A stretch of 22,385 nucleotides of DNA from a virus, in IMG/VR virus record IMGVR_UViG_3300008627_000066, positions 1-22,385 of that record; one strand, written 5' to 3'. The notes below the pieces were generated by a model. That model was given only the letters and a program-made list of their open reading frames with translations. It ran no database searches and was not told the origin of the DNA. Shown here in pieces: positions 133 through 20,965 of this stretch (the first letter of the stretch is position 1; the number at the start of each line of letters is the position of its first letter). The translations under genes and the position numbers were made by a program.

Positions 133-630
133 TTAATATCCACACTCAAACCATGCAGTACCGTTAAACAGCAATATCATGCCTCCGGATACCCGGTTAA
201 AAATAACGTCCCCTCCGTTGTTTAGGAAGATTTCTTCGCCTGTCCCTTCGTCGTGTTCTATTGTGAGCCTGTTAGTGGCATCAATGATCACAATGAAAAC
301 TATTTGCCCGGTCACACCCCCGTCAAACCCTCCTATAACCATGTCCCCATCCGTTGTATTAACAAACACAATAGAAACCTCGCTAACATCAACAGCATCA
401 GAGCTACTAATTATAGTTGTCGTGCTACTAACATAAACTTCAGCACTCAGATCGCTTGCAATCACGACATCACCCGTGCCTTTTGGGTCAATCAACAGGT
501 CACCGTTAACATCCTGGGTGGTGATCGTGTCAGTTGCCGTCTTATCGAACCACCCCTGCTCTTTCTTAATTCGCTTCTGTGAAAAGCCCAAAATAGGTAT
601 TATAAGCAATAGGAATAATAGGTATTTCAT
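133..630 (-). CDS. Signal-peptide tail-fibre-like protein
   Basis: A 165-aa protein with an N-terminal Sec-type signal, MKYLLFLLLIIPILGFSQ, predicted to be cut after SQ. The mature part is rich in short beta-strand-like repeats of Gly, Asp, Thr, Val and Ile, including DPKGTGDVVI and a C-terminus reading GGMILLFNGTAWFECGY. Such a pattern is common at the distal end of tail fibres and secreted beta-structured phage proteins, but no specific domain can be named. The ATG at 630-628 lies in the second copy of a 20-bp tandem duplication; the first copy carries an identical ATG that is out of frame and ends after seven codons. A virion tip or host-surface role is inferred from position after the other tail-tip genes. 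Confidence 0.7.
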   Translation of the reverse strand: MKYLLFLLLIIPILGFSQKRIKKEQGWFDKTATDTITTQDVNGDLLIDPKGTGDVVIASDLSAEVYVSSTTTIISSSDAVDVSEVSIVFVNTTDGDMVIGGFDGGVTGQIVFIVIIDATNRLTIEHDEGTGEEIFLNNGGDVIFNRVSGGMILLFNGTAWFECGY

Positions 631-650
631 AGGAATAATAGGTATTTCAT
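611..650. repeat. Exact 20-bp tandem duplication over a start codon
   Basis: Positions 611-630 and 631-650 are identical (aggaataataggtatttcat on the plus strand). Each copy carries one ATG on the minus strand. Because 20 is not a multiple of three, only the copy at 611-630 is in frame with the 165-aa protein. Each unit holds two similar AT-rich halves, which could favour slippage. Confidence 0.95.
627..650 (-). other. Seven-codon minigene made by a tandem duplication
   Basis: The ATG at 650-648 opens a frame that reads MKYLLFL and stops at TGA (629-627). Its start overlaps the TGA of the upstream 82-aa gene as ATGA, and its stop overlaps the ATG of the 165-aa gene as ATGA. The peptide repeats the first seven residues of the downstream protein because the 20-bp unit was duplicated, shifting the frame. 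A ribosome could pass through three coupled stop/start junctions here. Whether the minigene is translated is unknown; it may be a harmless by-product of slippage. Confidence 0.4.
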
Positions 651-895
651 CTGTTTATTATTATCGTGTCGTTTCTTCGTTTCACCCCTCTTAACTTCAT
701 CTCCTTTTCAAACATCCAGGCTTTCAGCTCACTCAATACCCGCTTAGGCATCTTTTGATTATCTTCTTTCAGGTCTTTCAAATCATCTTTAAACTCGTTA
801 TGTTCTATCTGGTGTTGAATGTATAACCCTATTCCAGTACAAACAACCCCGAAGCAGAAAGCTAATATACCCCACCATTTTCTTACCCATTCCAT
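647..895 (-). CDS. Small membrane protein with coiled-coil tail
   Basis: An 82-aa protein with one N-terminal hydrophobic segment at about residues 8-27 (WGILAFCFGVVCTGIGLYI), then a charged, probably helical region rich in Lys, Glu and Asp (about 31-72). The ATG at 895-893 overlaps the TAA of the upstream gene by one base (TAATG), and its own TGA overlaps the next ATG as ATGA, so it lies in a coupled chain. A short anchor plus a charged helix just after the tail genes fits a spanin-like or other lysis accessory protein, but many unrelated small phage membrane proteins look the same. Function unknown. Confidence 0.7.
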   Translation of the reverse strand: MEWVRKWWGILAFCFGVVCTGIGLYIQHQIEHNEFKDDLKDLKEDNQKMPKRVLSELKAWMFEKEMKLRGVKRRNDTIIINR

Positions 896-1131
896 TAATC
901 TCTTTTCAATAACTCTTTGTACTCACTTGTTAACTCAAACCCATTATTATTTACGATTTGCTCAATATTTGGAGTAGCTAAATCAAACCAAAACTCCTTG
1001 TATGCAAACATTGTGGTTTCTTCTCTTTGTACTTCTTTTATATCGAAGCGAATTAGCATGCCTCCTTGTGTTTTTTCAACTAATAGAGGGCTGTTATTGC
1101 TTTCTGAATTGCGAAAAATGTGTGGTTTCAT
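895..1131 (-). CDS. Unknown 78-aa protein
   Basis: A 78-aa soluble protein starting MKPHIFRNSESNNSPLLVEK. It contains GGMLIRFDIKEVQREE and a C-terminal part with FWFDLATPNIEQIVNNNGFE. There is no signal peptide, membrane segment or recognisable catalytic motif. The middle (residues about 16-50) looks like a small beta-sheet and the end like a helix. It starts 49 bases after the stop of the lectin-like tail protein and shares its last base with the start of the following membrane-protein gene. I do not recognise its function. Confidence 0.65.
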   Translation of the reverse strand: MKPHIFRNSESNNSPLLVEKTQGGMLIRFDIKEVQREETTMFAYKEFWFDLATPNIEQIVNNNGFELTSEYKELLKRD

Positions 1132-1180
1132 TTCTATTTATGTTAGTGATTTATCTTTTCTTATTTATAATCATGCTAAA

Positions 1181-1315
1181 TTAATAGCAAAGGCGACCGG
1201 CAAGATTCACATCGTCAGCCGACCAAGCGTCATTCACCTTCAGCGCAAAAACGCCAGCCACGCCACCGGCATTCGCATCCCTGCCCGCGAGAACGACCCG
1301 CCAATAATCCCTACC
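1181..1315 (-). other. Candidate variable repeat of a diversity-generating retroelement
   Basis: This is the 3' end of the lectin-like gene. The encoded tail runs from about YWRVVLAGRDANAGG to NLAGRLCY. Its layout (spaced N, D, A, G and V residues around AGVFAL, AW and GRL) matches the general form of retroelement target proteins. The coding strand is sharply poor in adenine, as expected where template adenines have been replaced. A weak 5-bp inverted repeat (tgcta/tagca, 1174-1178 and 1185-1189) straddles the stop codon. No reverse transcriptase or template copy lies in this window, so the call rests on composition and protein pattern only. Confidence 0.45.
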
Positions 1316-2866
1316 AACTTGACTATATTGATAATAATAATCGCATAAATCAGTCGTGCTGCTTGCTCCAACTGCTGAAGGAATAAATCCTGTTGCTTCT
1401 TCTATATTACTTATATATCCAGCATCTGCACCTATGTACGAAGCATCACATAAATGTTTCATATTTGTACTTACCTGATCGGCAAAATAGCTTGAGTTGT
1501 TGGTAACATAAACTGGTTGTGCTGCTGCTGCACCTGTCCAGCTTCCATCCCATGCTATACCATCCAGCATTTTCCATACGTTGCCAAAAAGGTTTTCTAT
1601 ACCACGATACGTCATGTAATCGGTAAGATAACCAGTTCCATTAATACTGTAAAGAGTGCCACTCATAACAGAATTAGTTCCATTACCGTCACTTATACTA
1701 AGTCCGGTAGGTGCTATATAACTATCGGCTGTCCATCCGCCTCCTGTTAAATTAGTTCGCCCTCCACCTATCATTGATTGAGCATTAAAATCAGCATACT
1801 CAACAAGATATAAGAGTTGTACCGCTGAATGAAGGTAGTAATCTAATTGCCGGAAACCCGCGCCGCGTTCAGCTGCCATAGTTCGGTATTCTGCACGTGT
1901 TTCGTTTACTTTAGGCCATTGCCCTGCCACGCTGCACATCTCATCATTAGCCGCGTATAAATCTGTTGGAATGCTTGCTTTTGCTGTCATCGCTCCCTCC
2001 GAATCATCGTACATTGAACCTTCAAATGCTGAATAATATCTGTAATCTACTTCAGCTCCATCTTTCCAAAAAGCAGGGTGAAGGTCAAAGCCCGGAAGGT
2101 CATATTTAGATATATACCAACTGTTAACCGTCCCGGTTAAATCATGTTTGAAATAAAATTTTGGAATCTCAACCATTACCTGCCCATCATCGCCATTAAG
2201 AACAGCCGTCCCAATTACATAAACCTCTCCGCTTACCATTATATCCCGATCAAGACTTAATGTGTTTAGATCGTCCCTTGCTGTAATCATTGCCCACGTG
2301 TCATCCGTAATGTTATGAACCATCATTCCGGCAACAACAGCGTCCGTTACGAAATCAGCTCCACTGTCTTCCAGTTTATCTCCTGTTGTACCGTCAGTTG
2401 TACCGGATGTTTTAACTGTCGTGCCTTCCTTCATGTAAGAACTATCAGCGTCAAGATAATAGTTAACCGTTCCGGCATCAGCTAATAAGCAGCGTTTCAT
2501 GTCGGATTGAATAGGGAGATAGGCATTTCCAGCGCTTTGAGCAGTTGCTATTCCTTTCAGCGAACCTAATCTTGTGTAAGTATCACCATCAGAATCCCAT
2601 GTTACTCCTTGACATAACGATAGACTCATTCCATCCATTGTAATTGCTTCAGTTGTGATTACTCCAGCTACATCTAAAGTAGTATTAGTTTCATCCCAAA
2701 GGATTTTACTTACACTCGCTATACTCCATAACCCCGTCGAATTATCATAATAAATTATAGCCCCATCAGCAGCCGTCCCGCTAAAACTCGCTTCCTGGGG
2801 GCGGTATTGAGCCGAAACGCTGAACGCTAAAAGCAATCCAGCGAATATTAGAATTAATCTTTTCAT
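1181..2866 (-). CDS. Tail-tip protein with C-type-lectin-like C-terminus
   Basis: A 561-aa protein with a signal peptide (MKRLILIFAGLLLAFSVSAQ), a beta-rich N-terminal part, a middle segment (about 150-220) of the DSGADFVTDAVVAGMMV type, and a C-terminal domain from about 235. That domain has EIPKFYFK, HPAFWKDGAEVDYRYYSAFE, GIENLFGNVWKMLDG and ends LAGRLCY. The NLFGNVWKMLDG pattern and the GRL ending are typical of the formylglycine-enzyme/C-type-lectin fold used in variable receptor-binding proteins of diversity-generating retroelements. The last 120 bases (1181-1300) are about 59% GC and only 13% A on the coding strand, against about 35% GC and 34% A in the 120 bases before. I infer a host-recognition adhesin at the tail tip. 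No conserved sulfatase-activating active site is evident, so enzymatic FGE activity is unlikely. Confidence 0.82.
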   Translation of the reverse strand: MKRLILIFAGLLLAFSVSAQYRPQEASFSGTAADGAIIYYDNSTGLWSIASVSKILWDETNTTLDVAGVITTEAITMDGMSLSLCQGVTWDSDGDTYTRLGSLKGIATAQSAGNAYLPIQSDMKRCLLADAGTVNYYLDADSSYMKEGTTVKTSGTTDGTTGDKLEDSGADFVTDAVVAGMMVHNITDDTWAMITARDDLNTLSLDRDIMVSGEVYVIGTAVLNGDDGQVMVEIPKFYFKHDLTGTVNSWYISKYDLPGFDLHPAFWKDGAEVDYRYYSAFEGSMYDDSEGAMTAKASIPTDLYAANDEMCSVAGQWPKVNETRAEYRTMAAERGAGFRQLDYYLHSAVQLLYLVEYADFNAQSMIGGGRTNLTGGGWTADSYIAPTGLSISDGNGTNSVMSGTLYSINGTGYLTDYMTYRGIENLFGNVWKMLDGIAWDGSWTGAAAAQPVYVTNNSSYFADQVSTNMKHLCDASYIGADAGYISNIEEATGFIPSAVGASSTTDLCDYYYQYSQVGRDYWRVVLAGRDANAGGVAGVFALKVNDAWSADDVNLAGRLCY

Positions 2867-2868
2867 CT

Positions 2869-3294
2869 CTATTGTTTTTTAATTGTGTATTTTACCGTAA
2901 AAGTAGCTACCTTCCCCCCAGCTTCCATATCAAAATAAACCCTGACATAATTAAACTCGCATACACTGGGGTCGCTAAACGATACCGTCCCCGTAGCCCC
3001 TGTCATAGTGGAAGTTGTCATATTAGGGTAATCTACCCAGGTCGTACCGTCCATTGAAGCGTCAATACTCAAAACGGAAGCAGTCCCATCGTGAGCAGTC
3101 CAATCGATTACCGCCCCCCAGGATAGGGGAATTTGTTTCTTTAACATATTTTGGGTTGTCGGGTTGAGCTGGATAACCAAACTTGAATCCGTTATAACCT
3201 TAACCGCATTTAACCCTGTACGGTACAAAATATTCTGCCCGAAGCCCACCCAGGCAAAAGCCAGAATTACTAAAATCATTGTTACTCTTTTCAT
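2869..3294 (-). CDS. Signal-peptide beta-sandwich protein of the tail tip
   Basis: A 141-aa protein with an N-terminal signal (MKRVTMILVILAFAWVGFGQ). The rest is predicted beta-structure: LSIDASMDGTTWVDYP, followed by FNYVRVYFDMEAGGKVATFT. Strands of this type (SxDGxxW, then YVRV) are common in discoidin-like or carbohydrate-binding beta-sandwich modules, but the match is only a pattern. It sits between two other signal-peptide tail genes with gaps of 2 and 11 bases, so it probably belongs to the tail-tip or fibre complex. No catalytic residues are visible. Exact function unknown. Confidence 0.7.
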   Translation of the reverse strand: MKRVTMILVILAFAWVGFGQNILYRTGLNAVKVITDSSLVIQLNPTTQNMLKKQIPLSWGAVIDWTAHDGTASVLSIDASMDGTTWVDYPNMTTSTMTGATGTVSFSDPSVCEFNYVRVYFDMEAGGKVATFTVKYTIKKQ

Positions 3295-9633: not shown

Positions 9634-10053
9634 TTAGTCTGGTGTTGACCCGGTTAAGGTTAACTGCCCGTTGCCTACAAAAGAACAAGCAAAGGTTGCG
9701 TTAGCCTGGTTTGGAGAATCTATACTCACGTTCTGAAGGTAAGCGTTCCCCCCGAAGGTAAAATCATCTACGTTTGCAGTCTTAAAAAGCAAGGCTATGG
9801 ATGTTTTATTTAATACAAGGTTCATCAGGTAAGCGTAGTTATGGGCCGTGTCAAAAGTAATTAACCCGCTTGTTTCCATAGTCCAGCTTTGAAGCCCCGG
9901 AAGTATTGTTTTCCACCCGCTACTGTCTTTAGTAGTGGTGTCCCTCATATCCAGGTTTAAGCTAAGTTTACATGATTGAGAGTAAGCTATTTTCGTCCCT
10001 GCTGCATATATACAAAGGTCTGTCCCGTTTATAATTCCCGCTGTTACTGCCAT
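9634..10053 (-). CDS. Tail tube protein, TP901-1 type (second copy)
   Basis: A 139-aa protein starting MAVTAGIINGTDLCIYAAG, with the tail-tube patterns SCKLSLNLDMRDTTTKDSSG, SWTMETSGLITFD and a C-terminal FACSFVGNGQLTL. This is the TP901-1-like major tail protein family, which polymerises into the hollow tube of non-contractile tails. About half of the residues in the SCKL to FD segment are identical to the 135-aa protein encoded immediately upstream, so the two are tandem paralogues. It is followed after 10 bases by the tail chaperone gene. Either this or its neighbour may be the main tube subunit; which one cannot be told from sequence. Confidence 0.85.
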   Translation of the reverse strand: MAVTAGIINGTDLCIYAAGTKIAYSQSCKLSLNLDMRDTTTKDSSGWKTILPGLQSWTMETSGLITFDTAHNYAYLMNLVLNKTSIALLFKTANVDDFTFGGNAYLQNVSIDSPNQANATFACSFVGNGQLTLTGSTPD

Positions 10054-10094: not shown

Positions 10095-10502
10095 TTAGGT
10101 ATGAGCAGCCTTTGTGAGTACTCCGGTTCCTACGAAGGAGGCTGAATATGTTACACTATCCTCATTCGGTGCATCCATGTCAATAGACTTAATATAGCCC
10201 TCACCATGCCAATAGGAATCTCCGCTTGTTCCGGTCATCATTTTAAGATGTACCTGGGTACGGTTTACTACCAGGTCTGTAAGTTCATCGAACTCATACC
10301 CGGAAGCATCAAAAGCGACCATGCCGTCACAGGATACCTCCCAGCTTCTTTTACCTTCGGCATTGGTCTGCCACCCGTTGTCATCCTTTGTGAATGTATC
10401 CCTCTCATCATGGTTAAGGGTTAACTTACATGAAGTTGACCCGGCTATTGCTTCACCATCTACATAAAGAAGGAAATTCTTTCCATTTACTACTGTTGCC
10501 AT
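10095..10502 (-). CDS. Tail tube protein, TP901-1 type (first copy)
   Basis: A 135-aa tail-tube family protein: MATVVNGKNFLLYVDGEAIA at the N-terminus, then SCKLTLNHDERDTFTKDDNG, SWEVSCDGMVAFDASG and a C-terminal YSASFVGTGVLTK. The same landmarks appear in the same order in the following gene. It lies directly after the tail terminator gene (4-base gap) and 41 bases before the second copy. Presence of two tube-type genes could mean a tube of mixed subunits, or one tube protein plus one decoration or tail-end protein. No contractile sheath gene is present. Confidence 0.85.
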   Translation of the reverse strand: MATVVNGKNFLLYVDGEAIAGSTSCKLTLNHDERDTFTKDDNGWQTNAEGKRSWEVSCDGMVAFDASGYEFDELTDLVVNRTQVHLKMMTGTSGDSYWHGEGYIKSIDMDAPNEDSVTYSASFVGTGVLTKAAHT

Positions 10503-11345: not shown

Positions 11346-11659
11346 CAGTACTTTTTCTCTGCCGTTATTTCCAGCCTTCTTTTCCTATCTGGTTTTTCAA
11401 TCGTTACAATATCGTAGTATTCCGTATCAAATAGTATCTGCATAGCTTCCGTTACATCGGTTCTGAATCGTATCGTAAACATCACCCTGTTAGAAGCTGT
11501 TACCTTGTCCCCTTCCGTATCCTCACCGCCACCAACCGGGGTTATCTTAGCCCAAACCGTAGCTAATATTGCAGGGGTTTCAACCGACTGCCCCATACTA
11601 TCCCTTGCCGTTGTAGCGGTGTATATTACTATCCTCCTATCTAAATCACCTGTTCTCAA
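11345..11659 (-). CDS. Head closure protein (head-tail adaptor), TTG start
   Basis: A 104-aa protein, RTGDLDRRIVIYTATTARDS at the N-terminus and ITPVGGGEDTEGDKVTASNR in the middle, ending in a Lys/Arg-rich strand. This is the pattern of the phage head-tail adaptor (SPP1 gp16 / HK97 head closure) family, which seals the connector and attaches the tail. No ATG precedes the conserved N-terminus. The codon at 11659-11657 is TTG, overlapping the TGA of the connector gene as TTGA, so start by TTG with translational coupling is the most likely reading. Confidence 0.85.
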   Translation of the reverse strand: MRTGDLDRRIVIYTATTARDSMGQSVETPAILATVWAKITPVGGGEDTEGDKVTASNRVMFTIRFRTDVTEAMQILFDTEYYDIVTIEKPDRKRRLEITAEKKY

Positions 11660-12231
11660 AACGTAAACAATCTATATGGGTTCATTAAATATTCAGAGCC
11701 TTTAGGTAAATCGTTTACCATAGTCCCGGTAATTACTTCCTCCCGGTTCTCGTAAAGGTGCCCTATGATTAACAACATAGCAGACTTTAACGGACCTGGA
11801 ACCAAAGCAGCCGAAGCATAACCCGCCAGAAACCGTATTTTAACATCATTGGTAAACCCCCTGTTAGTAGGCCACGATTGGTCATAAGCAAGTATAATTT
11901 TATTCGGTTCGTTGCTTTCATCAAGGGTGTAAACGGTGTTAGCAAGGGTTTGCTCTACGCTGTCCGCATCATAATACTTAACCGAAGTGATAGACTGCAC
12001 GGGGGTCTTTTCTAACGAGTATTCCGTTTCTGAAAAAGAATCCATTTGCAACTCCCAGGTTTGGTCAAGTAATGCCCTCCGGGTGTACTCCTCTACCATT
12101 TGCCTTGCAGTTGGTATCAAAGTGTCCTCAATCCAGGTATCCTCGTCCGTGTCGGCTGTTTCAATCTTCAGGTGTAACTTAGCTTCAGCTAACGTAATCG
12201 GCTCGGATGTCGGTGCAGTTATCAGTTTCAT
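11656..12231 (-). CDS. Head-tail connector protein (gp6-like)
   Basis: A 191-aa protein starting MKLITAPTSEPITLAEAKLH. It carries the typical sequence of head-tail connectors of the HK97 gp6 / phiE125 gp8 type: PITLAEAKLHLKI, then WIEDTLIPTARQMVEEYTRR, a beta region (TPVQSITSVKYYD), and C-terminal helices with PLKSAMLLIIGHLYENREEV. These proteins form a ring below the portal. The gene lies between the small basic gene and the closure gene, as in many HK97-type modules, and its TGA overlaps the following TTG. Confidence 0.87.
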   Translation of the reverse strand: MKLITAPTSEPITLAEAKLHLKIETADTDEDTWIEDTLIPTARQMVEEYTRRALLDQTWELQMDSFSETEYSLEKTPVQSITSVKYYDADSVEQTLANTVYTLDESNEPNKIILAYDQSWPTNRGFTNDVKIRFLAGYASAALVPGPLKSAMLLIIGHLYENREEVITGTMVNDLPKGSEYLMNPYRLFTF

Positions 12232-13826: not shown

Positions 13827-14441
13827 TCACAAGGCCGTTTCTATCTCAAGTAATCTCGTTCTTTCTTTATATGTACCCAGGTCATCATCCGGGCTGTCAT
13901 CTGGTTTGGGTTTCTCTTTTGACTTTTTGTATTCGTCAAACTCTGAGCGGAGGCTAACGTTATCATCCGGGTAAGCCGGATATGTTACCGGGGATAAATC
14001 CCGCATCATAGAGAATTTAGTTACCTCCCTTAATACGGTCCCATCCTCCTCCTCTCTCCAGTTTACCCCATCAGGAGCAACCCGGAAAGCAAACGAAGTG
14101 CCATCTATATCCCCCCGCTTTACTTCCTCCTGTATATCTCTGCCTACTGTGGTATTAGGTAAGTCAATTTCATACCCCAGGTTGCCCTCTTTGTCAAGTT
14201 TCATCCGTAGGGTTCCGCTTTTTGTCCGGCCTAATATCAGGTTTTCATCATGGTTTTTCAGCCCCCTGACATCATTATCCAGAATATTATCGAATACTCC
14301 GGGCATCAATACCTCCCGGAAGCCTCCCAGGTCAACACTTCTCACATTGACTTTTACCAGCCCGTTTAATTGGGTTGGCTTTCCTTCCTCTGCTCTCAAC
14401 TCTACCGTAGCTTCAAAAGACCTTTTTTCTATCTTACTCAT
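13827..14441 (-). CDS. Prohead protease, HK97 family
   Basis: A 204-aa protein that cleaves the capsid delta domain during head maturation. The core (about 5-165) includes FREVLMPGVFDNILDNDV, LKNHDENLILGRTKSGTLRM with the probable catalytic His64, DIDGTSFAFR with the probable catalytic Ser116, and a final DLSPVTYPAYPDDNVSLR. The remaining 40 residues are charged and rich in Lys, Pro and Asp, as in other members where the tail is lost or acts in assembly. It overlaps the portal gene by 8 bases. Catalytic assignments follow the family pattern of His and Ser; the third residue is probably a Glu near 139. Confidence 0.93.
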   Translation of the reverse strand: MSKIEKRSFEATVELRAEEGKPTQLNGLVKVNVRSVDLGGFREVLMPGVFDNILDNDVRGLKNHDENLILGRTKSGTLRMKLDKEGNLGYEIDLPNTTVGRDIQEEVKRGDIDGTSFAFRVAPDGVNWREEEDGTVLREVTKFSMMRDLSPVTYPAYPDDNVSLRSEFDEYKKSKEKPKPDDSPDDDLGTYKERTRLLEIETAL

Positions 14442-15687
14442 CTGTATTTATGTTTTGTTTTTGTACCTGTTCCAGCGGAGCCATGTTGACCATAACTAAA
14501 CGGCTGTCCCCTTCCGGCCCTATCTCGTTTTTATCTTCTAACTCCCGGACCTCGTTAATAGAGTAAACCCCTATCCGGGTCATTATCTCAAAGTATTCTG
14601 CTCTGCTCTTTGCATCCCCCCGGAGTAACCCGTTGAGGTTGCACTTAACAAACATCCTACCCCTTTCAGATTCCTTAAATAGCTTCCGGTTAAATTCCTG
14701 TTCAAACCTCATACACCAGGGCAACATAGTATAGGTCACAAATTCAATTCCCTGGTGTTCTATGTTATTGTTAGTTGACCTTTCAAGGTCTGCAATCATG
14801 TGAGGCGGGACCCTGAAAATACGGGCTATCTCGTTAATCTGAAACTTACGGCTTTGGATAAATTGGGCAGCTTCAGGAGGGATAGCTTTTTGAGCATACT
14901 TCATTCCCTCCTCTAATATTTGTACCCCGTGTCGGTTGCCCTGTCCTGTGGTTTTCTCCTTTAGTGATTCCGATAAGTGTTTATATGCTTTATCTGAAAG
15001 TTTGCCAGGGTGTTCAAATACCCCCGTTAAACTTGCTCCGTTCTTAAAGAACTCCGAACTCCAACGCTGCATAGCTAACCCCAGCCCTATACTGTCTGCT
15101 GCTATATCTATCGGGCTTTGTCCTATGATACCGTTATACGATAAGCCAGGTACATGAATCATATTAACGGCCTGTATATCCCTGTCTTTTGTCTGCCCGT
15201 CTGCCTTTTTAACTTCATAGCGAAGTCTGCCGTTCTTAAATAACTTCGGCTCAACCAATCCGGGATGTATAGGAATTAACTCTTTAGGTACATGGTCCCC
15301 GCCCCGTTTGATTTCTGCATAAGCATTACCCCAGCCCACAGCATGAGCCATAAGGGTTTCATAGAACGTAAAGGCAGACATTAAAGGGTTAGGTTCTGAA
15401 TGAACCAAGTCATATATTTTATGGTCCGTAGCTGGGAACTTCTTACCGTCCTCCAGTTTAATAACGTGCTTTGGGATAGAGGCCATTGTTTCCCCTAACA
15501 CCCGGATACAAGCGTAAACAGCAGAAAACTTTAGGGCCGTTTCCTGGTCCACTTGCTCCCCGGAAAGGGCTTTACTGCCTCCCCAGAAGCCTTCAGTTAA
15601 CCACTTGATGAAATTAGAAATAGAGGACTGTGGGTAGTCTGTCCTCTGTTCACCTTTTTGGCGGGTAATCTCAAACGATAATCGCAT
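14434..15687 (-). CDS. Portal protein, HK97 family
   Basis: A 417-aa portal protein, the dodecameric DNA gate of the head. Landmarks: ETALKFSAVYACIRVLGETM near the start, HVPKELIPIHPGLVEPKLF, MIHVPGLSYNGIIGQSPID, RWSSEFFKNGASLTGVFEHP, ILEEGMKYAQKAI, and EIARIFRVPPHMIADLERST. This order is diagnostic of the HK97 portal family. I start at the ATG at 15687-15685; a TTG at 15693 would add two residues. Upstream is a 90-base gap holding a palindrome, then the accessory cassette. Confidence 0.95.
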   Translation of the reverse strand: MRLSFEITRQKGEQRTDYPQSSISNFIKWLTEGFWGGSKALSGEQVDQETALKFSAVYACIRVLGETMASIPKHVIKLEDGKKFPATDHKIYDLVHSEPNPLMSAFTFYETLMAHAVGWGNAYAEIKRGGDHVPKELIPIHPGLVEPKLFKNGRLRYEVKKADGQTKDRDIQAVNMIHVPGLSYNGIIGQSPIDIAADSIGLGLAMQRWSSEFFKNGASLTGVFEHPGKLSDKAYKHLSESLKEKTTGQGNRHGVQILEEGMKYAQKAIPPEAAQFIQSRKFQINEIARIFRVPPHMIADLERSTNNNIEHQGIEFVTYTMLPWCMRFEQEFNRKLFKESERGRMFVKCNLNGLLRGDAKSRAEYFEIMTRIGVYSINEVRELEDKNEIGPEGDSRLVMVNMAPLEQVQKQNINTDE

Positions 15688-15732
15688 AGGCAATATAAAA
15701 GTGTAAAATTAATACCTCTATTGCCTGATACT

Positions 15733-15749
15733 ATGTACCAATGGTACAT
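15733..15749. promoter_or_regulatory. Perfect 8-bp-arm palindrome upstream of the portal gene
   Basis: The arms atgtacca and tggtacat are exact reverse complements separated by a single base. The site lies in the gap between the sulfotransferase stop and the portal start, about 46 bases from the portal ATG. Its symmetry and tight spacing suggest a dimeric regulator binding site. I find no clear Bacteroidota -7 box (TAnnTTTG) nearby, so a promoter is not claimed. A one-base loop and absent T-run argue against a terminator. Confidence 0.5.
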
Positions 15750-15777: not shown

Positions 15778-16194
15778 TCAATGATTCTTATTTAGATGAG
15801 GGAAGGGAACATCTGGAATAGGGACATTCAGGAACTCGCATAACTCTTTCCAGCCGTCCCCATTTTCCCAACAAACTACAAGACAGTTAGGGAGTTTTGA
15901 GCATACGTTAATATGATGGGTGTATATATCCATCCACCAAGATTCTGGATACCACGACCCATACATATCCAATCGCTGTTTGTATATCCCTTGCCCCATT
16001 GTATGTTTTTTATCCCATTTTATTACACTTTGTAGCCAAGTTAATGAATCTTTACGGGTTGTAAGTATCAACTTCCCGTCCCACTTCGGAAGGAAATGTA
16101 CATAGTCCCCGACCTCCGCTTCAACCCCTAATATCTCAAGGGCTTTCTTTAGGGTAGTGGTTCCTGTTTTAGGTAGTCCTATTCCGTAAATCAT
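15778..16194 (-). CDS. Short sulfotransferase-family protein
   Basis: A 138-aa protein. The N-terminus IYGIGLPKTGTTTLKKALE is the phosphosulfate-binding loop (PKTGTTT, residues 8-14) of PAPS-dependent sulfotransferases; KLILTTRKDSLTWLQSVIKW (41-60) matches the 3'-phosphate site with Arg47 and Ser50; the end GWKELCEFLNVPIPD and FPHLNK are usual at the C-terminus of the sulfotransferase_17-like group. Most members are around 200 residues or more, so this one is compact, but both cofactor sites and the C-terminal element are present, so it is not obviously broken. It would sulfate a hydroxyl or amine of an unknown acceptor. Its ATG overlaps the PanD stop as ATGA, so the two are coupled. Confidence 0.78.
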   Translation of the reverse strand: MIYGIGLPKTGTTTLKKALEILGVEAEVGDYVHFLPKWDGKLILTTRKDSLTWLQSVIKWDKKHTMGQGIYKQRLDMYGSWYPESWWMDIYTHHINVCSKLPNCLVVCWENGDGWKELCEFLNVPIPDVPFPHLNKNH

Positions 16195-16532
16195 ACCGCT
16201 TTATTATTTTCGTCTGTGTGAATAATCATAGGAAGTGGTGACCAGCCAAATTGAGGTTCTATTAAAACAAACGCTAAAACGTGAATCTTATCCCCTTTTT
16301 TAAAGAATAAAGAAGCCCCACCGTTTAACTTTATTTCTCCTTTTTCACCAGGAATTACATAGGTCATTATTCTGGATGGGTGGTTTTTCCCATTTATATA
16401 TACTTGCTGATAGGGTGCTATCCCAGCCCGTCCCATTAAATCACGACAAATAGTAATAGACCCCTCATAATCTTTATTTGCTTCGGTTACTGTAACCTCT
16501 TGCAATTTGCCCTTTAATACGTTAATATACAT
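16191..16532 (-). CDS. panD: Aspartate 1-decarboxylase (PanD-like)
   Basis: A 113-aa protein that should convert L-aspartate to beta-alanine and CO2 using a pyruvoyl group made by self-cleavage. Starting at the ATG at 16532, numbering matches E. coli PanD: Lys9 in VLKGKL, the Gly24-Ser25 cleavage site in DYEGSITI, Arg54, Thr57 and Tyr58 in SRIMTY, and an NGGAS segment (Asn70) for the conserved Asn72. GDKIHVLAF follows. All residues required for processing and catalysis appear present. A longer start at 16577 exists but adds 15 residues absent from the family and overlaps the neighbour by 56 bases. It overlaps the PP-loop gene by 11 bases and the sulfotransferase gene by four. PanD normally serves pantothenate synthesis; use by a phage is unexpected. 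Confidence 0.88.
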   Translation of the reverse strand: MYINVLKGKLQEVTVTEANKDYEGSITICRDLMGRAGIAPYQQVYINGKNHPSRIMTYVIPGEKGEIKLNGGASLFFKKGDKIHVLAFVLIEPQFGWSPLPMIIHTDENNKAV

Positions 16533-17637
16533 TTTCGTAAACTGTTGCGAAGCCCCATAGTTTAGCTTCATATCCATATAAATTACTTGTAAAATCTAAT
16601 CCTTTAGGTATGTATTCTTTATAATCCTGGTATAGTTGTGACTGATAAAACCAGCCTTCGATATATTCTTTTCTTAACTCTGATATATTCCAACTATAAT
16701 CATGTTCCCCGTATTTGATATAAAAACAATCTACCCCGTGACTGTCAATAAAACTCCTCACCACCTCACCCCTGACACTATCCCTTTGCCCGTCCCAGCT
16801 CACATCAGGAGAGTTAAGCAGGGATACCCCTAAATATTGATACGAGAAAAAAGGCAGATACACTTCTTTGAACACCCTGCGATAATACCCCTCCCACTGG
16901 CCTTCGTCCGGGTATTGATTTAACAGTAGGTTGAGATTCTTATTTAGCGTCCTTTGTGGGTCATACTTTGGATTTGGTTTGGCTAAAAACTTAAACAACT
17001 CACCCCCGACCCCCGTTATTACATTCCACTCCTTTTCGTTTTCAATAATGTCACTCCAAAAATTCATCTGCTGGTTATAGTTCTGCCACCCGTTCAACGG
17101 CCTGTCTGATCTCCCTATGTCGTAATGATCTGCCTTTGTCCCTGTAAATACTGAGTATTGTGATTTCTCCCACCCTTGTTGTGTCATTATGTCCAGAAAC
17201 ATCGGACCTTCTGGCTGGTAACAGCGAAAGTGAACCCCGGACATATCATGCCCTTCATCCCTTAACTCCATTAATACAAGTGAGATTATACGGGAATCAA
17301 ACCCAGCGGAATGGAATACTATGTAGTTGCCCTTTCGGATAACTTTGTTAAAATATGATTTTAGAGCAGACCGGATGGCAGCTACCAGGTTTCTCATAGG
17401 GGGCTTTTTGATAGGTGTTAGCATCACCTTAGAATAAATACCCTTACTCATTACCTGTTGTGGGTGAGCAAACTCGACACCTAAAAAAGGAGTAGCATAC
17501 CAGGGAGGCACATATTCCGGGTTAAAAAAGTTAACATCAACTCCCAGGTGTTGGCCTTTGACTAACCGTATCAAGTCGTAATCGTAATTACCTAAAAATT
17601 GATATGTGCCCCTGTTAAACTGCATAAAGCTCCTCAT
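16522..17637 (-). CDS. PP-loop ATPase, asparagine-synthase-like
   Basis: A 371-aa protein with a pyrophosphate-binding loop FHSAGFDSRIISLVL (SxGxDS type, residues 110-115) as in the adenylating domain of asparagine synthases and other N-type ATP pyrophosphatases, and a later VITGVGGELFKFL segment (207-219) that resembles the G-G-x-E-L-F element of asparagine synthase. An N-terminal glutaminase with a catalytic Cys2 is absent, so ammonia or an amine rather than glutamine would be the nitrogen donor. Such enzymes adenylate a carboxylate and join it to an amine. It starts 38 bases after a tiny membrane gene and overlaps PanD by 11 bases. Substrate unknown; a link to beta-alanine is inference. 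Confidence 0.72.
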   Translation of the reverse strand: MRSFMQFNRGTYQFLGNYDYDLIRLVKGQHLGVDVNFFNPEYVPPWYATPFLGVEFAHPQQVMSKGIYSKVMLTPIKKPPMRNLVAAIRSALKSYFNKVIRKGNYIVFHSAGFDSRIISLVLMELRDEGHDMSGVHFRCYQPEGPMFLDIMTQQGWEKSQYSVFTGTKADHYDIGRSDRPLNGWQNYNQQMNFWSDIIENEKEWNVITGVGGELFKFLAKPNPKYDPQRTLNKNLNLLLNQYPDEGQWEGYYRRVFKEVYLPFFSYQYLGVSLLNSPDVSWDGQRDSVRGEVVRSFIDSHGVDCFYIKYGEHDYSWNISELRKEYIEGWFYQSQLYQDYKEYIPKGLDFTSNLYGYEAKLWGFATVYENVY

Positions 17638-17675
17638 TAATCCATTAATATTATTCCATTCTAACCGTATTGGTG

Positions 17676-17798
17676 TTATATTGTCTGTTCTCGTCTCTTA
17701 TCCTTTCTGTTTAAAATTACAAACAATACTAAATAACATCCTATCCCAAACGTGAGGATAGAACCGTAAGCGATTAAAATAGGTATAACTACGTTCAT
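17676..17798 (-). CDS. 40-aa single-span membrane peptide
   Basis: A short frame, ATG at 17798 to TAA at 17676, coding MNVVIPILIAYGSILTFGIG then CYLVLFVILN and a basic tail RKDKRREQTI. Residues 3-29 are hydrophobic, and the positive tail predicts N-out, C-in topology. Its ATG overlaps the TGA of the deacetylase gene as ATGA, the same junction used elsewhere in this operon, which supports it being real. It may anchor or assist the neighbouring surface-modification enzymes, or act on its own; function unknown. Confidence 0.6.
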   Translation of the reverse strand: MNVVIPILIAYGSILTFGIGCYLVLFVILNRKDKRREQTI

Positions 17799-18460
17799 AA
17801 ATCATAACTTTGCGGGTGCATCAACAGTTGATACCGTCCCTTGTTGTTAATCCATTTATCTAAAGTTTCAAAAGGGTCTTTATTCCATTTCCCGCCCCCG
17901 TCAGAAAGGCGATCATCCCGCTTGTCTTGCATAGCTTCAACCTCCAGCCCAAACCGTTCCATTTTCCAGGTCGGGCCTACATAGTCGGGCAACCTCCAAC
18001 AATGGAACCCAAATACATTATCATTAGCTACCCGTTTCTTTACTTGCCACGCCCCTCCATGTGAGGAGGTGCATCTGATCTTTAGCCCCATTCCCCTTAG
18101 TTCCCTTAAAGGTCTTTCAATCGCTTCCTTTATAGGTGTCCCGTTCTCATAATGGTCGCTTAAACAATCGTTATGCCACCCTATTTCATGCCCCCAACGG
18201 TCTTGTAATATTTTAAGAGCCATTACAAAGTATCTATTATTTGGTTGGAAATACGGTTTATCCGGGGGCCAGGTGTTAATAATAAAGATAGTAGATTTTA
18301 TCCCCATCTCATACTCAATCTTTGCAGCTTTCATTGCCCGGGTGAAATCCCCGTCAACATCGTGCCTCAATATTATCCCTTCGCCTGGGGTGTGGAAGTC
18401 TATAACATAGGGTTGTATAATCTCCAGAACCTTTATAAAGTTTTTCCGTGTGAATTTCAT
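17795..18460 (-). CDS. NodB-like polysaccharide deacetylase (CE4-like)
   Basis: A 221-aa protein with the carbohydrate-esterase-4 order: an Asp motif RHDVDGDF (33-38; Asp34 and Asp36), a metal-binding GHEIGWHND (His91 and His96 of the HxxxxH type), a TSSHGG segment (131-136), and a late LLMHPQ (212-217) for the catalytic His. No signal peptide, so it acts in the cytoplasm, probably on a nucleotide-linked or lipid-linked sugar rather than on the cell wall. It overlaps the glycosyltransferase gene as ATGA and the 40-aa gene the same way. Deacetylase activity is inferred from the motifs; some of these proteins have other substrates. Confidence 0.75.
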   Translation of the reverse strand: MKFTRKNFIKVLEIIQPYVIDFHTPGEGIILRHDVDGDFTRAMKAAKIEYEMGIKSTIFIINTWPPDKPYFQPNNRYFVMALKILQDRWGHEIGWHNDCLSDHYENGTPIKEAIERPLRELRGMGLKIRCTSSHGGAWQVKKRVANDNVFGFHCWRLPDYVGPTWKMERFGLEVEAMQDKRDDRLSDGGGKWNKDPFETLDKWINNKGRYQLLMHPQSYDL

Positions 18461-19182
18461 TTTAACAAGTTTTTCAATACATCAATGTCAACAGGCTTTG
18501 CCTTTTCAATAGATGACAAAAACTGGAAGTGGTTAATAGATACGTTGCTTTTGAACCCAGTTGTGAACGGCCTCCAGTTGGTATGAACCATAGTAGGCCG
18601 GATTCCGATTTTCATTAACCGATTCATTGAGGCCGTGTCCATCCCCCTATCCAGATTATAATGATACAAGGGCAGTTTGTATTTTTTTTGCAGCCGTATA
18701 ATAGCTTCAGTCTTTATTAACCGCATCACACCAACCGGGTATTTGTGATTATACAAGTCAAGGTAATATGCCTTCCCGCTTTCCTGATCCACAATATGAC
18801 AGGAATCAATACCTATCAGCTCTTTCCCCGCTTCAATGTGAGGTTTGTACTCTTTCCATATAGAAGCATCACAAAGGTCATCACTACCCATATTCATAAT
18901 GTAATCAGGTTTAAACATAGCAAGGGCAGTCTGTATGCCCGCATTAAGTTTAGCCCCTATCGGGAGGTTCTTATACTGGGTCACGGTAAAATCAAACTCA
19001 TGCCCAATATCAATTAACTCCTGTATGTCCCTATCCTCTGGAGAAACAACACATAAGTAATTCACCTCTACCCAGGCGGGTGATTCCTTTATGAACCGTT
19101 GCATAGACTTACAATGTCGCAACGTCACTTCCCACCTTCTCCACCAGGGGCAAACGATGGTAACTTTAACTTTTTTTCTCAT
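18457..19182 (-). CDS. Family 2-type (GT-A) glycosyltransferase
   Basis: A 241-aa protein starting with a Rossmann-like strand KVTIVCPWWRRWEVTLRHC, then the GAKLNAGIQTAL segment (77-88) and a metal-binding motif MNMGSDDL (96-103), the usual DxD place of GT-A fold enzymes. A region with KYPVGVMRLIKTEAI follows. No membrane segment is seen, so it is a soluble enzyme that transfers a sugar from a nucleotide-sugar donor; donor and acceptor are unknown. Its 5' end overlaps the small 76-aa gene by 17 bases and its TGA overlaps the deacetylase start. Confidence 0.8.
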   Translation of the reverse strand: MRKKVKVTIVCPWWRRWEVTLRHCKSMQRFIKESPAWVEVNYLCVVSPEDRDIQELIDIGHEFDFTVTQYKNLPIGAKLNAGIQTALAMFKPDYIMNMGSDDLCDASIWKEYKPHIEAGKELIGIDSCHIVDQESGKAYYLDLYNHKYPVGVMRLIKTEAIIRLQKKYKLPLYHYNLDRGMDTASMNRLMKIGIRPTMVHTNWRPFTTGFKSNVSINHFQFLSSIEKAKPVDIDVLKNLLK

Positions 19183-19396
19183 CCCTTTTTTTCTTTAAAT
19201 AAATATCCCTGGTTTTGCGGAAAGAGTTGAAACTTTTATACCTCCGTTCCCCAAAGATGAACTTATACTGCCTTTCAACGGCTTCATAAGCATCTTCCTG
19301 TTTTTTGAAATCGCAAAGCATTTCCCAGAAAGCTTCAATAAAGCCTTCTATCTTAGTGAGCCTTGCGTATTGCGGTTCTAATTTTTGTTTGGTCAT
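19166..19396 (-). CDS. Small unknown protein next to terminase
   Basis: A 76-aa charged protein, with a helical first part (IEGFIEAFWEMLCDFKKQED) and a second part rich in Arg, Lys and aromatic residues (YKFIFGERRYKSFNSFRKTR) ending in a Lys-rich tail. The compact helical form with a basic second half could bind nucleic acid, but I see no clear helix-turn-helix. It lies 9 bases after the large terminase and overlaps the glycosyltransferase gene by 17 bases. Function unknown. Confidence 0.65.
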   Translation of the reverse strand: MTKQKLEPQYARLTKIEGFIEAFWEMLCDFKKQEDAYEAVERQYKFIFGERRYKSFNSFRKTRDIYLKKKRDEKKS

Positions 19397-19405
19397 ATCG
19401 TTATT

Positions 19406-20965
19406 TTATAATGTTTTAACTCCCCCATCATCATATACCGAAGTATCCCCATCGAAATGTGTCATAAACTCCCCGACTGCCATAACCAGCCCCACCATGC
19501 CGTCAACCTTTTCGGTACTCTTTGACTTGTCTATCTTGTTATCACCCGCTGCATTTTCGACTATCATAACATTGGAACACATCCACCTTAACACAGGGTT
19601 GCCTAAATGGTTTACCTGTGAGTTATATACCATACCCTCTAACTCCTTTGTTGGAGCAGACATCGAAGCGAAGCCTTGACCGAAAGGAGTACATTCAAAC
19701 CCATCCCCCTGTAAGTTAATCACAAGCTGTGAAGCGTTCCACCTATCGTATGCAATAGTCCGTATCTCATATATATCATTCTGTTCATTGATAAACTTCC
19801 GGATGTAATCATAGTCCGTTACGTTGCCGGGTGTTTCGGTTATAAAGCCCTCCCTTATCCATTGATCATAATTAACACCGTCTTTTTGTGTTCGTTCCCT
19901 TGCCATTAGGCCCGGTACAAAGAAGTGAGAAATGACTATAAAAGTATCCTCATAGGGAAACAGCATCATAAAGGCGCATACATCCCTGCGAGAAGCAAGG
20001 TCAAGACCGCATACACAAGCCTTGCCTTTCAGCTTTTCAAGGTCAAACTCCACTACCCCCCGCATCCAGACTTCATCACTTATCCAACGGGTTTCTGCTG
20101 AAGTCCATTGGTTCAACTGCAACCGCCTGAAGGTGTTCTCATATGAAGGGGTGTTTTTTGCCCGTGTCGCTTCCTCAACGACATACTCTTTTTTCAATGA
20201 AATCTGATAACAGGGGTTAGCCCGTTTCCATACCTCCTCATCAAACACATCATCCTTTTCATCACTCTCATAGATAACAGGCAGAAAGGTATCGTCTTTT
20301 ATTATCCCGTCCCGGACCTTACAAGCGTATTCATATTGTTCAAAGCATATTGTTTCACGGTCAAAACCAGCAGTAGTAAAAGCAAAGGTAAGGGGTTGCC
20401 TCCGGGAACCGGTGGAGGTTGTCAACACATCCCATAGCTCCCGGTTAGGCTGGGTGTGAACTTCATCAAAGATAATCCCGTGAGAGTTCTTGCCATGTTG
20501 CCGGGGGGCATCACTTGACAGGACCCGGTAGAACGACCCGTTAGAGGGGTAGGTAATAGTACTTACAAACGTCCTTAGCTCCTCCGTTAACCGGGGGCTT
20601 TGTAGTATCATCTGTTTGGCTACATCATGGATAATACCCGCCTGTAACCTGTCCGAAGCAGCAGAGAATATCTCTGCCCCTGGCTCACCATCAGCACACA
20701 AAAGATACAAGGCAAGTGGGCTGCCTAACGTGCTTTTGCCGTTCTTGCGGGGGACAAAAATAAACACCCTCCTGTATCTCCGTAACCCTGTTTCTTTATC
20801 CTTCCATCCAAAAGCGGGTATAACAATTTCCTCCTTTTGCCATTCAGCAAGTATCAACGGCTTACCACCCCACTCACCTTTTACATGGGTGCAATATTTC
20901 TCAATCCACTTAACTACCTTCTCCCCGGCAGGGCGGTCCAAATAATATTTATCTGTTTCAGTCAT
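19406..20965 (-). CDS. terL: Terminase large subunit
   Basis: A 519-aa ATPase-nuclease that packages phage DNA into the prohead. Walker A is VPRKNGKSTL (71-80), Walker B is GIIFDEVH (163-170) with the catalytic Glu168, a coupling/motif III segment lies in TFAFTTAG (193-200), and the nuclease domain starts with VCGLDLASRRDVCAF (Asp322). The C-terminal part has AYDRWNASQLVINLQGDG, common in this terminase group. The length fits full-length enzymes of the HK97-like type. Start ATG at 20965 overlaps the small-subunit stop by one base (TAATG). Nuclease metal residues beyond Asp322 are not all mapped. Confidence 0.95.
   Translation of the reverse strand: MTETDKYYLDRPAGEKVVKWIEKYCTHVKGEWGGKPLILAEWQKEEIVIPAFGWKDKETGLRRYRRVFIFVPRKNGKSTLGSPLALYLLCADGEPGAEIFSAASDRLQAGIIHDVAKQMILQSPRLTEELRTFVSTITYPSNGSFYRVLSSDAPRQHGKNSHGIIFDEVHTQPNRELWDVLTTSTGSRRQPLTFAFTTAGFDRETICFEQYEYACKVRDGIIKDDTFLPVIYESDEKDDVFDEEVWKRANPCYQISLKKEYVVEEATRAKNTPSYENTFRRLQLNQWTSAETRWISDEVWMRGVVEFDLEKLKGKACVCGLDLASRRDVCAFMMLFPYEDTFIVISHFFVPGLMARERTQKDGVNYDQWIREGFITETPGNVTDYDYIRKFINEQNDIYEIRTIAYDRWNASQLVINLQGDGFECTPFGQGFASMSAPTKELEGMVYNSQVNHLGNPVLRWMCSNVMIVENAAGDNKIDKSKSTEKVDGMVGLVMAVGEFMTHFDGDTSVYDDGGVKTL

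Follow-up and report, generated by a model that had tools for sequence, protein, structure and literature searches.

A six-gene cassette between the terminase and portal genes of a viral contig: a candidate amino-sugar modification module carried as late-operon cargo

What does a run of sugar-enzyme-like genes do between the large terminase (TerL) and the portal gene of a phage? The question is raised by a 22,385-base IMG/VR virus record, IMGVR_UViG_3300008627_000066, a fragment that was analysed over its whole length and is here called the window. At this position its minus strand encodes a putative glycosyltransferase, a deacetylase-like protein, a membrane peptide, a PP-loop protein, the aspartate decarboxylase PanD, and a short sulfotransferase. 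At roughly even odds (probability about 0.5), we read the cassette as late-operon cargo, or a moron, encoding a small amino-sugar modification module. In such a module, the glycosyltransferase would attach or provide a sugar, more likely on a surface glycan of the host than on a virion protein; the deacetylase-like enzyme would remove an N-acetyl group and expose an amine; PanD would make beta-alanine from aspartate; and the ATP-dependent PP-loop enzyme would activate a carboxylate and form an amide. Two geometries can be proposed for the amide: the carboxyl group of beta-alanine joined to the exposed sugar amine, or its amine joined to a uronic carboxyl group, beta-alanine taking the place of ammonia. 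The sulfotransferase would then add sulfate from 3'-phosphoadenosine-5'-phosphosulfate (PAPS), and the charge or a receptor epitope would thereby be altered, which could help against superinfection or in virion attachment. We infer each of these enzymatic steps and the sequence in which they occur, along with the acceptor, the involvement of beta-alanine, and the advantage gained.

Evidence that part of the cassette is maintained as a set came from relatives of the phage. Cassette genes were present in four other viral-contig records. L002, L008, and L007 were ~98-99% like the window; L002 contained the whole cassette, with ~98-100% amino acid identity per gene apart from the sulfotransferase (80%), and the downstream part was found in L004/L008 and in L007. 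A second lineage (L003, equal to L009) was more distant, with amino acid identities of 76-78% for the portal, 75% for the PP-loop protein, 64-69% for PanD, and 72-73% for the sulfotransferase. It kept the order PP-loop, PanD, sulfotransferase, portal, with a 59-amino-acid transmembrane-like peptide between the PP-loop and PanD genes. Between the lineages, omega was <0.07 for the PP-loop gene, 0.18 for PanD, and 0.19 for the sulfotransferase; values for the portal and major capsid protein genes were 0.06 and 0.11. The low omega, near the range of the structural genes, points to purifying selection, and together with the retained order it indicates that these three genes have been kept and used since the phages parted, while the upstream half of the cassette was exchanged.

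In place of the glycosyltransferase and deacetylase-like genes, L003 carried a 144-amino-acid protein (called methyltransferase-like by eye), a membrane peptide, a 245-amino-acid GNAT/FemAB-like protein, a 123-amino-acid protein, and a 374-amino-acid DUF6395 protein. The last of these, QueC-like (L003 1727-2851), lay immediately upstream of the cassette PP-loop gene, and no other viral relative of it was found. The six genes are not one indivisible unit, because the glycosyltransferase, the deacetylase-like protein, and the peptide are missing from this sister phage. The preliminary description had proposed a single functional unit, to be abandoned if the linkage proved to be chance; what stood was a core of PP-loop, PanD, and sulfotransferase genes, in the same order across ~25-35% protein divergence, and what fell was the full set of six, the other three genes being missing from the sister lineage. 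The GNAT/FemAB-like protein of L003 had no NCBIfam match and reached only E 0.04-0.2 to TIGR03019-type proteins. In an O-antigen-type locus, a homolog of it makes up the C-terminal half of a GT2 protein, and this link to surface polysaccharide, in a phage where the core stays, favours the module.

The deacetylase gene (17795..18460, minus strand; 221 amino acids; motifs ILRHDVD, HEIGWH, and LMHP) appears to encode a polysaccharide or amino-sugar N-deacetylase that is CE4-like, as judged through its cellular homologs; the phage protein itself had no PF01522, NCBIfam, or PHROG match. Homologs were found in about nine of 387 genomes from the phylum of G001, to which a contig of a Kiritimatiellae metagenome-assembled genome belongs (6e-10 to 0.004 per genome). 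The metal-site motifs of the phage protein, RHDVD and HEIGWH, are kept as RHD[VIC]D and H-[ED/S]-[IL]-G-x-H in eight cellular homologs, the closing HP is conserved, and a distant homolog (L105) is a clear PF01522 deacetylase. At three loci (L111, L151, and L152), one in each of three genomes, a CE4-like homolog lies within a few genes of a TIGR03019-type FemAB protein (VimA-type) and a TIGR03108-type AsnB amidotransferase (WbpS-type), the enzyme set of the Wbp/Vim pathway; these neighbours score below the equivalog cut-offs of those two families, and two of these loci also hold sugar aminotransferases and epimerases. In a 707-amino-acid cellular protein (L110 7355-9478; G064:C33), a CE4-like deacetylase domain is fused to a Sulfotransfer_3 domain. 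These neighbourhoods and this fusion favour the module, and they indirectly support the CE4-like gene as part of it. Four further homologs (L109, L148, L149, and L150) lie elsewhere, among other or unfamiliar genes, so the link to glycan loci covers only part of the CE4-like family.

The 371-amino-acid protein encoded at 16522..17637 (minus strand), of ATP-pyrophosphatase type, is best called a new PP-loop family. It contains HSAGFDSRIIS, of which L003 shares HSAGFDSR, and, 99 residues on, GVGGELF, close to the SGGxDS and G-x-G-[GS]-DELF motifs of AsnB (99-105 residues apart); the chance expectation of this motif pair was about 1e-8. No match to PF00733 was obtained at E 10, the N-terminal glutaminase is lacking (no Cys2, MCGI...), profile-profile comparison (hhalign) with three AsnB proteins was not significant, and a PDB profile search with a wider alignment gave no match. 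An AlphaFold2 model built from three close sequences was too weak for a fold call (predicted local distance difference test, pLDDT, 40). That the protein forms amides we infer from its fold class. The only distant homolog found, on plasmid p2 of Caballeronia insecticola (7e-12, 23-26% identity), keeps HS-x-G-x-DSRIIS (HSSGSDSR), D-x-Y-x-IGR-x-D-x-P-x2-GW, and QM-x-FW-x-D. It adjoins, on the opposite strand, a polysaccharide export gene, a pyridoxal-phosphate aminotransferase, an LpxC-like deacetylase, and a type I polyketide synthase, and this proximity to a polysaccharide export/LpxC-type cluster also favours the module. The PP-loop protein was found neither in isolate phages nor in genome contigs; a degenerate DNA scan of viral contigs for [VIL]FHSAGFDSR returned only the two already known, and sampled genomes from the phyla of G001 and G002 yielded nothing convincing, where an empty answer shows little.

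PanD (pyruvoyl aspartate 1-decarboxylase; 16191..16532, minus strand, in a reading frame open from 16577) was assigned more directly, by a PF02261 match of 5.1e-30 and 104.1 bits (curated cut-off 25) and by full-length alignment with the solved PanD chains 2c45 and 3oug. It keeps Gly24-Ser25 (YEGS/YKGS), the self-cleavage site that is the source of the pyruvoyl group (PMC4537548), together with K9, R54, T57, Y58, and the NG motif; position 11 is Gln, not His. It missed the NCBIfam TIGR00223 equivalog cut-off for host PanD function (80.3 bits vs 106) and is thus a divergent PanD. Phage PanD genes occur in other settings as well. The PanD gene of the Gordonia/Rhodococcus phage Jace (gp85-88; L113 4329-7094) is coupled with genes for a ParB_N protein, an ABC-ATPase/GNAT fusion, and a coenzyme A (CoA)-transferase III, a cluster that is different from the cassette and may use beta-alanine; in Achromobacter phage 2-1, PanD lies among replication genes without the cassette partners. 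Phage PanD genes thus stand in varied contexts, and a base-modification use has some small probability. Matches in 'phage' records of Listeria, Staphylococcus, E. coli, and similar hosts were discounted, since these unannotated or draft records probably contain host DNA.

The sulfotransferase (15778..16194, minus strand; motifs GLPKTGTTTL and ILTTR...S) matched PF17784 (Sulfotransfer_4) at 6.3e-20 and 72.4 bits (cut-off 22.8), as well as solved sulfotransferases including SgdX2. It is short, at 138 amino acids against a 215-position domain, and was matched in two stretches, the best covering profile positions 139-212 only; the PAPS-binding (5'-PSB) motif PKTGT is present, and GLPKTGTTTL is invariant. 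When the window was compared with L002, the 3.4-kb cassette accounted for 127 differing sites and the other ~6.8 kb compared for 29; a Fisher value of 6e-35 overstates the independence of these sites, which are clustered in patches. Most of them fall in codons 36-106 of the sulfotransferase gene (15877..16089), a swapped central segment with 64% nucleotide identity between two alleles; the ends on either side, which contain the PAPS-binding motif, are 99% identical. The window allele recurs in L007 and the L002 allele in L008, in phages otherwise ~99% identical. This pattern reflects recombination: a divergent stretch in the middle of the gene has been replaced, as would fit an exchange of the part that binds and chooses the acceptor, and we count it in favour of the module. 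A diversity-generating retroelement was rejected as the source, because many changes are synonymous and they are not confined to adenines. A second patch, in codons 93-153 of the PP-loop gene, is mostly synonymous, which shows that the PP-loop protein is under constraint. Outside the cassette, a further divergence patch (2.8%) between the window and L002 was seen in a head-tail connector-like gene (191 amino acids, 11656-12231).

The first enzyme of the proposed pathway is a putative GT-A glycosyltransferase (18457..19182, minus strand; 241 amino acids), with IMNMGSDDL as a DxD-like motif. Its AlphaFold2 model was weak (mean pLDDT 43), with Rossmann order in residues 1-100 and GSDDL present; Foldseek matches from this low-confidence model were weak too, and mixed GtrB/ArnC with non-glycosyltransferases. 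The assignment is therefore a putative one, drawn from a motif and a weak fold. Weak matches in L102 and L104 were rejected, as these large reading frames matched outside the motif region. The peptide of the cassette (17676..17798, minus strand; 40 amino acids, 100% identical in L002) has a single transmembrane segment, as read from its sequence. The preliminary description had placed six genes between TerL and the portal, at coordinates that agree with ours, and had reported closely spaced junctions, all of which were recovered: ATGA at glycosyltransferase/CE4-like, CE4-like/peptide, and PanD/sulfotransferase, a 38-base gap between peptide and PP-loop genes, and an 11-base PP-loop/PanD overlap using the PanD start MYINVLKGK, which lines up with known PanD N-termini. 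It had left unmentioned a seventh open reading frame, the first after TerL (19166..19396, minus strand; 76 amino acids), which overlaps the glycosyltransferase start by 17 bases, is 100% identical in L002, and had no Pfam match.

The position of the cassette was compared with that in related prophages. A portal alignment was used to fetch 80 prophage loci from genomes, mostly of Firmicutes and at 43-48% identity; with the near-identical L002 set aside, 77 relatives had both TerL and portal. The gap between them was <=122 bases, leaving no room for a gene, in 36 of the 77, and 263-2597 bases in the other 41; the 3.7 kb of the window was the longest found. The expectation that HK97-type phages as a rule lack genes at this spot was borne out by the former group and contradicted by the latter. 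Inserts, named by eye without a profile library, included RelBE-, Phd/Doc-, and HigBA-like pairs, Fic, an Abi-like protein, Xre regulators, and one PAPS-reductase-like protein, and in most relatives they shared the strand of the structural genes. Arthrobacter phage Laroye has five genes at the same spot (PMC5513430). With cargo in about half of the relatives, the TerL-portal gap is a general, recurrent cargo site and a possible hot spot for defence-type genes; the cassette is a moron there, and we count this too in favour of our reading.

The same site also suits independent morons that piled up at a permissive position, PanD being an ordinary auxiliary metabolic gene for host CoA/pantothenate and the others acting separately on the surface or in defence. 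The gap does gather unrelated cargo, the PanD of Achromobacter phage 2-1 stands alone beside replication genes, and the upstream three genes were replaced wholesale in L003. We nevertheless hold this explanation to be unlikely: the three core genes have stayed together and in order at 64-75% identity, with omega of <0.07 to 0.19, the genes are translationally coupled, and CE4-like cellular homologs are tied to amide-forming and sulfating enzymes.

Alternatively, the cassette could decorate the phage's own capsid or tail proteins. On the minus strand, the structural genes follow one another as TerS, TerL, cassette, portal, protease, major capsid protein, connectors, and tail; TerS, TerL (19406..20965; PF20441/PF03354, phrog_9), and portal (14434..15693; PF04860, 1.6e-110) were named more firmly, and capsid, connector, and tail genes were assigned by position and homology. 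The 84 bases between sulfotransferase and portal (15693) are the largest gap in the TerS-TerL-portal-capsid operon; embedded in this way, the cassette is probably made together with virions, as virion glycosylation would predict. No acceptor site or dedicated protein-glycosylation domain was identified, and the position is a general cargo site where toxin-antitoxin and Abi-like genes lie too, so that we regard decoration of the virion as quite improbable. Several observations were made along the operon. The gap before the portal gene contains a perfect inverted repeat, TGTACC-AAT-GGTACA (15734-15748), and the same short gap in sister phage L009 holds another, AGGCACTT...AAGTGCCT. Two adjacent tail-tube-like proteins (10095-10502 and 9634-10053) are paralog-like, with 39% identity in a cross-match. 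Several tail-region proteins (133-3294) have signal-peptide-like leaders ending in FSQ, SAQ, or FGQ. Such endings are a habit of Bacteroidota, and these leaders suggest that the host belongs to that phylum.

We give still less credence to nucleic-acid or nucleotide hypermodification, in which the PP-loop protein (with the QueC-like and GNAT-like proteins in L003) and PanD would build a base bearing beta-alanine. In its favour, a QueC-like PP-loop protein adjoins the cassette PP-loop gene in L003, and the PanD cluster of Jace could be read in the same way; yet it offers no obvious role for the glycosyltransferase, CE4-like protein, or sulfotransferase, polysaccharide loci are where homologs of the CE4-like protein and of the GNAT-like protein of L003 are found, and the remainder of the 22-kb window, itself a fragment, showed no gene recognisable as one for base hypermodification. 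Least probable is a pathway to a diffusible sulfated beta-alanine compound (a signal, osmolyte, or inhibitor): PanD, ligase-type PP-loop enzymes, and sulfotransferases do occur in natural-product pathways, and the Caballeronia homolog lies beside a type I polyketide synthase and an LpxC-like gene, but the glycosyltransferase, CE4-like protein, and membrane peptide are better suited to a glycan, and the cassette has no carrier protein, condensation domain, or exporter.

The amino-sugar module itself must be set against several observations that weigh on the other side. The glycosyltransferase had no Pfam, NCBIfam, or PHROG match, and the PP-loop protein no significant match to a named family among Pfam, PHROG, and NCBIfam profiles; the Caballeronia homolog lacks GxGG. 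Among viral contigs, cassette genes were found in just two independent lineages of phages, and the glycosyltransferase and CE4-like genes are absent from the sole sister lineage. Neither FemAB nor a glutaminase domain was found in the window, and PanD did not occur near TIGR03019/FemAB loci among the matches listed, in sampled genomes of one phylum. The late-operon position fits virion decoration as well as a surface change. The enzyme set was not found in isolate phages, and the papers searched on phage cassettes with these families held nothing relevant. A bolder form of the proposal seems to us doubtful: beta-alanine would be made, a new family of PP-loop ligases would join it to a uronic acid or an amino sugar, sulfation would follow, and phages would trade the sulfotransferase part that recognises the acceptor, the resulting beta-alanyl, sulfated glycan being one not described before. 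If the amino-sugar module is real, Bacteroidota phages carry compact versions of the amino-acid-on-sugar surface chemistry of their hosts, and phage PanD would supply a building block instead of serving vitamin synthesis. The module also offers a testable function for the new PP-loop family, and it marks the TerL-portal gap as a place for phage cargo.

How does the cassette compare with known systems? It shares its insertion site with the TerL-portal morons of HK97-type prophages, whose cargo is mostly toxin-antitoxin, Fic, Abi-like, helix-turn-helix, or unfamiliar genes, whereas that of the window consists of sugar enzymes. The O-antigen seroconversion cassettes of phages such as P22 and SfV (gtrABC/oac) are cargo beside the integrase that alters a surface sugar and blocks superinfection. 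The likeness lies in surface-sugar cargo with a glycosyltransferase and a small membrane protein; the cassette differs in that its enzymes are of amide-forming and sulfating kinds and are embedded in the late operon, and no GtrA flippase or GtrB was recognisable, neither the glycosyltransferase nor the 40-amino-acid peptide having a Pfam match. In heparan sulfate synthesis, the N-deacetylase/N-sulfotransferase NDST pairs an N-deacetylase with a PAPS sulfotransferase, and L110 is a bacterial fusion of the family of the phage deacetylase with a sulfotransferase; the phage genes are separate, their sulfotransferase is of the 138-amino-acid PF17784 type, and PanD and the PP-loop protein have no counterpart. 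Closest in logic is the Wbp/Vim pathway of Porphyromonas gingivalis and Tannerella forsythia, in which VimE, a putative CE4 enzyme, is presumed to strip off an acetyl group, VimA loads serine or glycine onto the freed amine, and WbpS converts a uronic acid to its amide (PMC7468200); the two amide geometries proposed above are Vim-like and WbpS-like, respectively. This pathway and the related PEP-CTERM/exopolysaccharide loci (TIGR03019, TIGR03108) share with the proposed module the kinds of enzyme, among them an ATP-dependent one acting on a sugar carboxylate, and the order of deacetylation followed by aminoacylation, a likeness drawn from the TIGR03019- and TIGR03108-type neighbours of CE4-like cellular homologs and not from the sequence of VimE. 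The window has no VimA/FemAB, and no WbpA/B/D/E sugar-nucleotide genes were seen among the reading frames of its 22 kb, functions that could be supplied by the host; the cassette adds PanD and a sulfotransferase, and its PP-loop protein keeps an SxGxDS-type loop while lacking a glutaminase domain and a PF00733 match. A search of the window for FemAB, glutaminase, and Wbp genes was negative; the module works along the same lines as the Wbp/Vim enzymes without belonging to their pathway. The statement that no described system has this set therefore needs amending as to the logic, which Wbp/Vim anticipates by deacetylating and then adding an amino acid (PMC7468200), and stands for the set that includes PanD. 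A moron that changes surface sugars is of a known kind; against the isolate phages and papers searched, PanD and a new PP-loop family together in a late operon are a new set.

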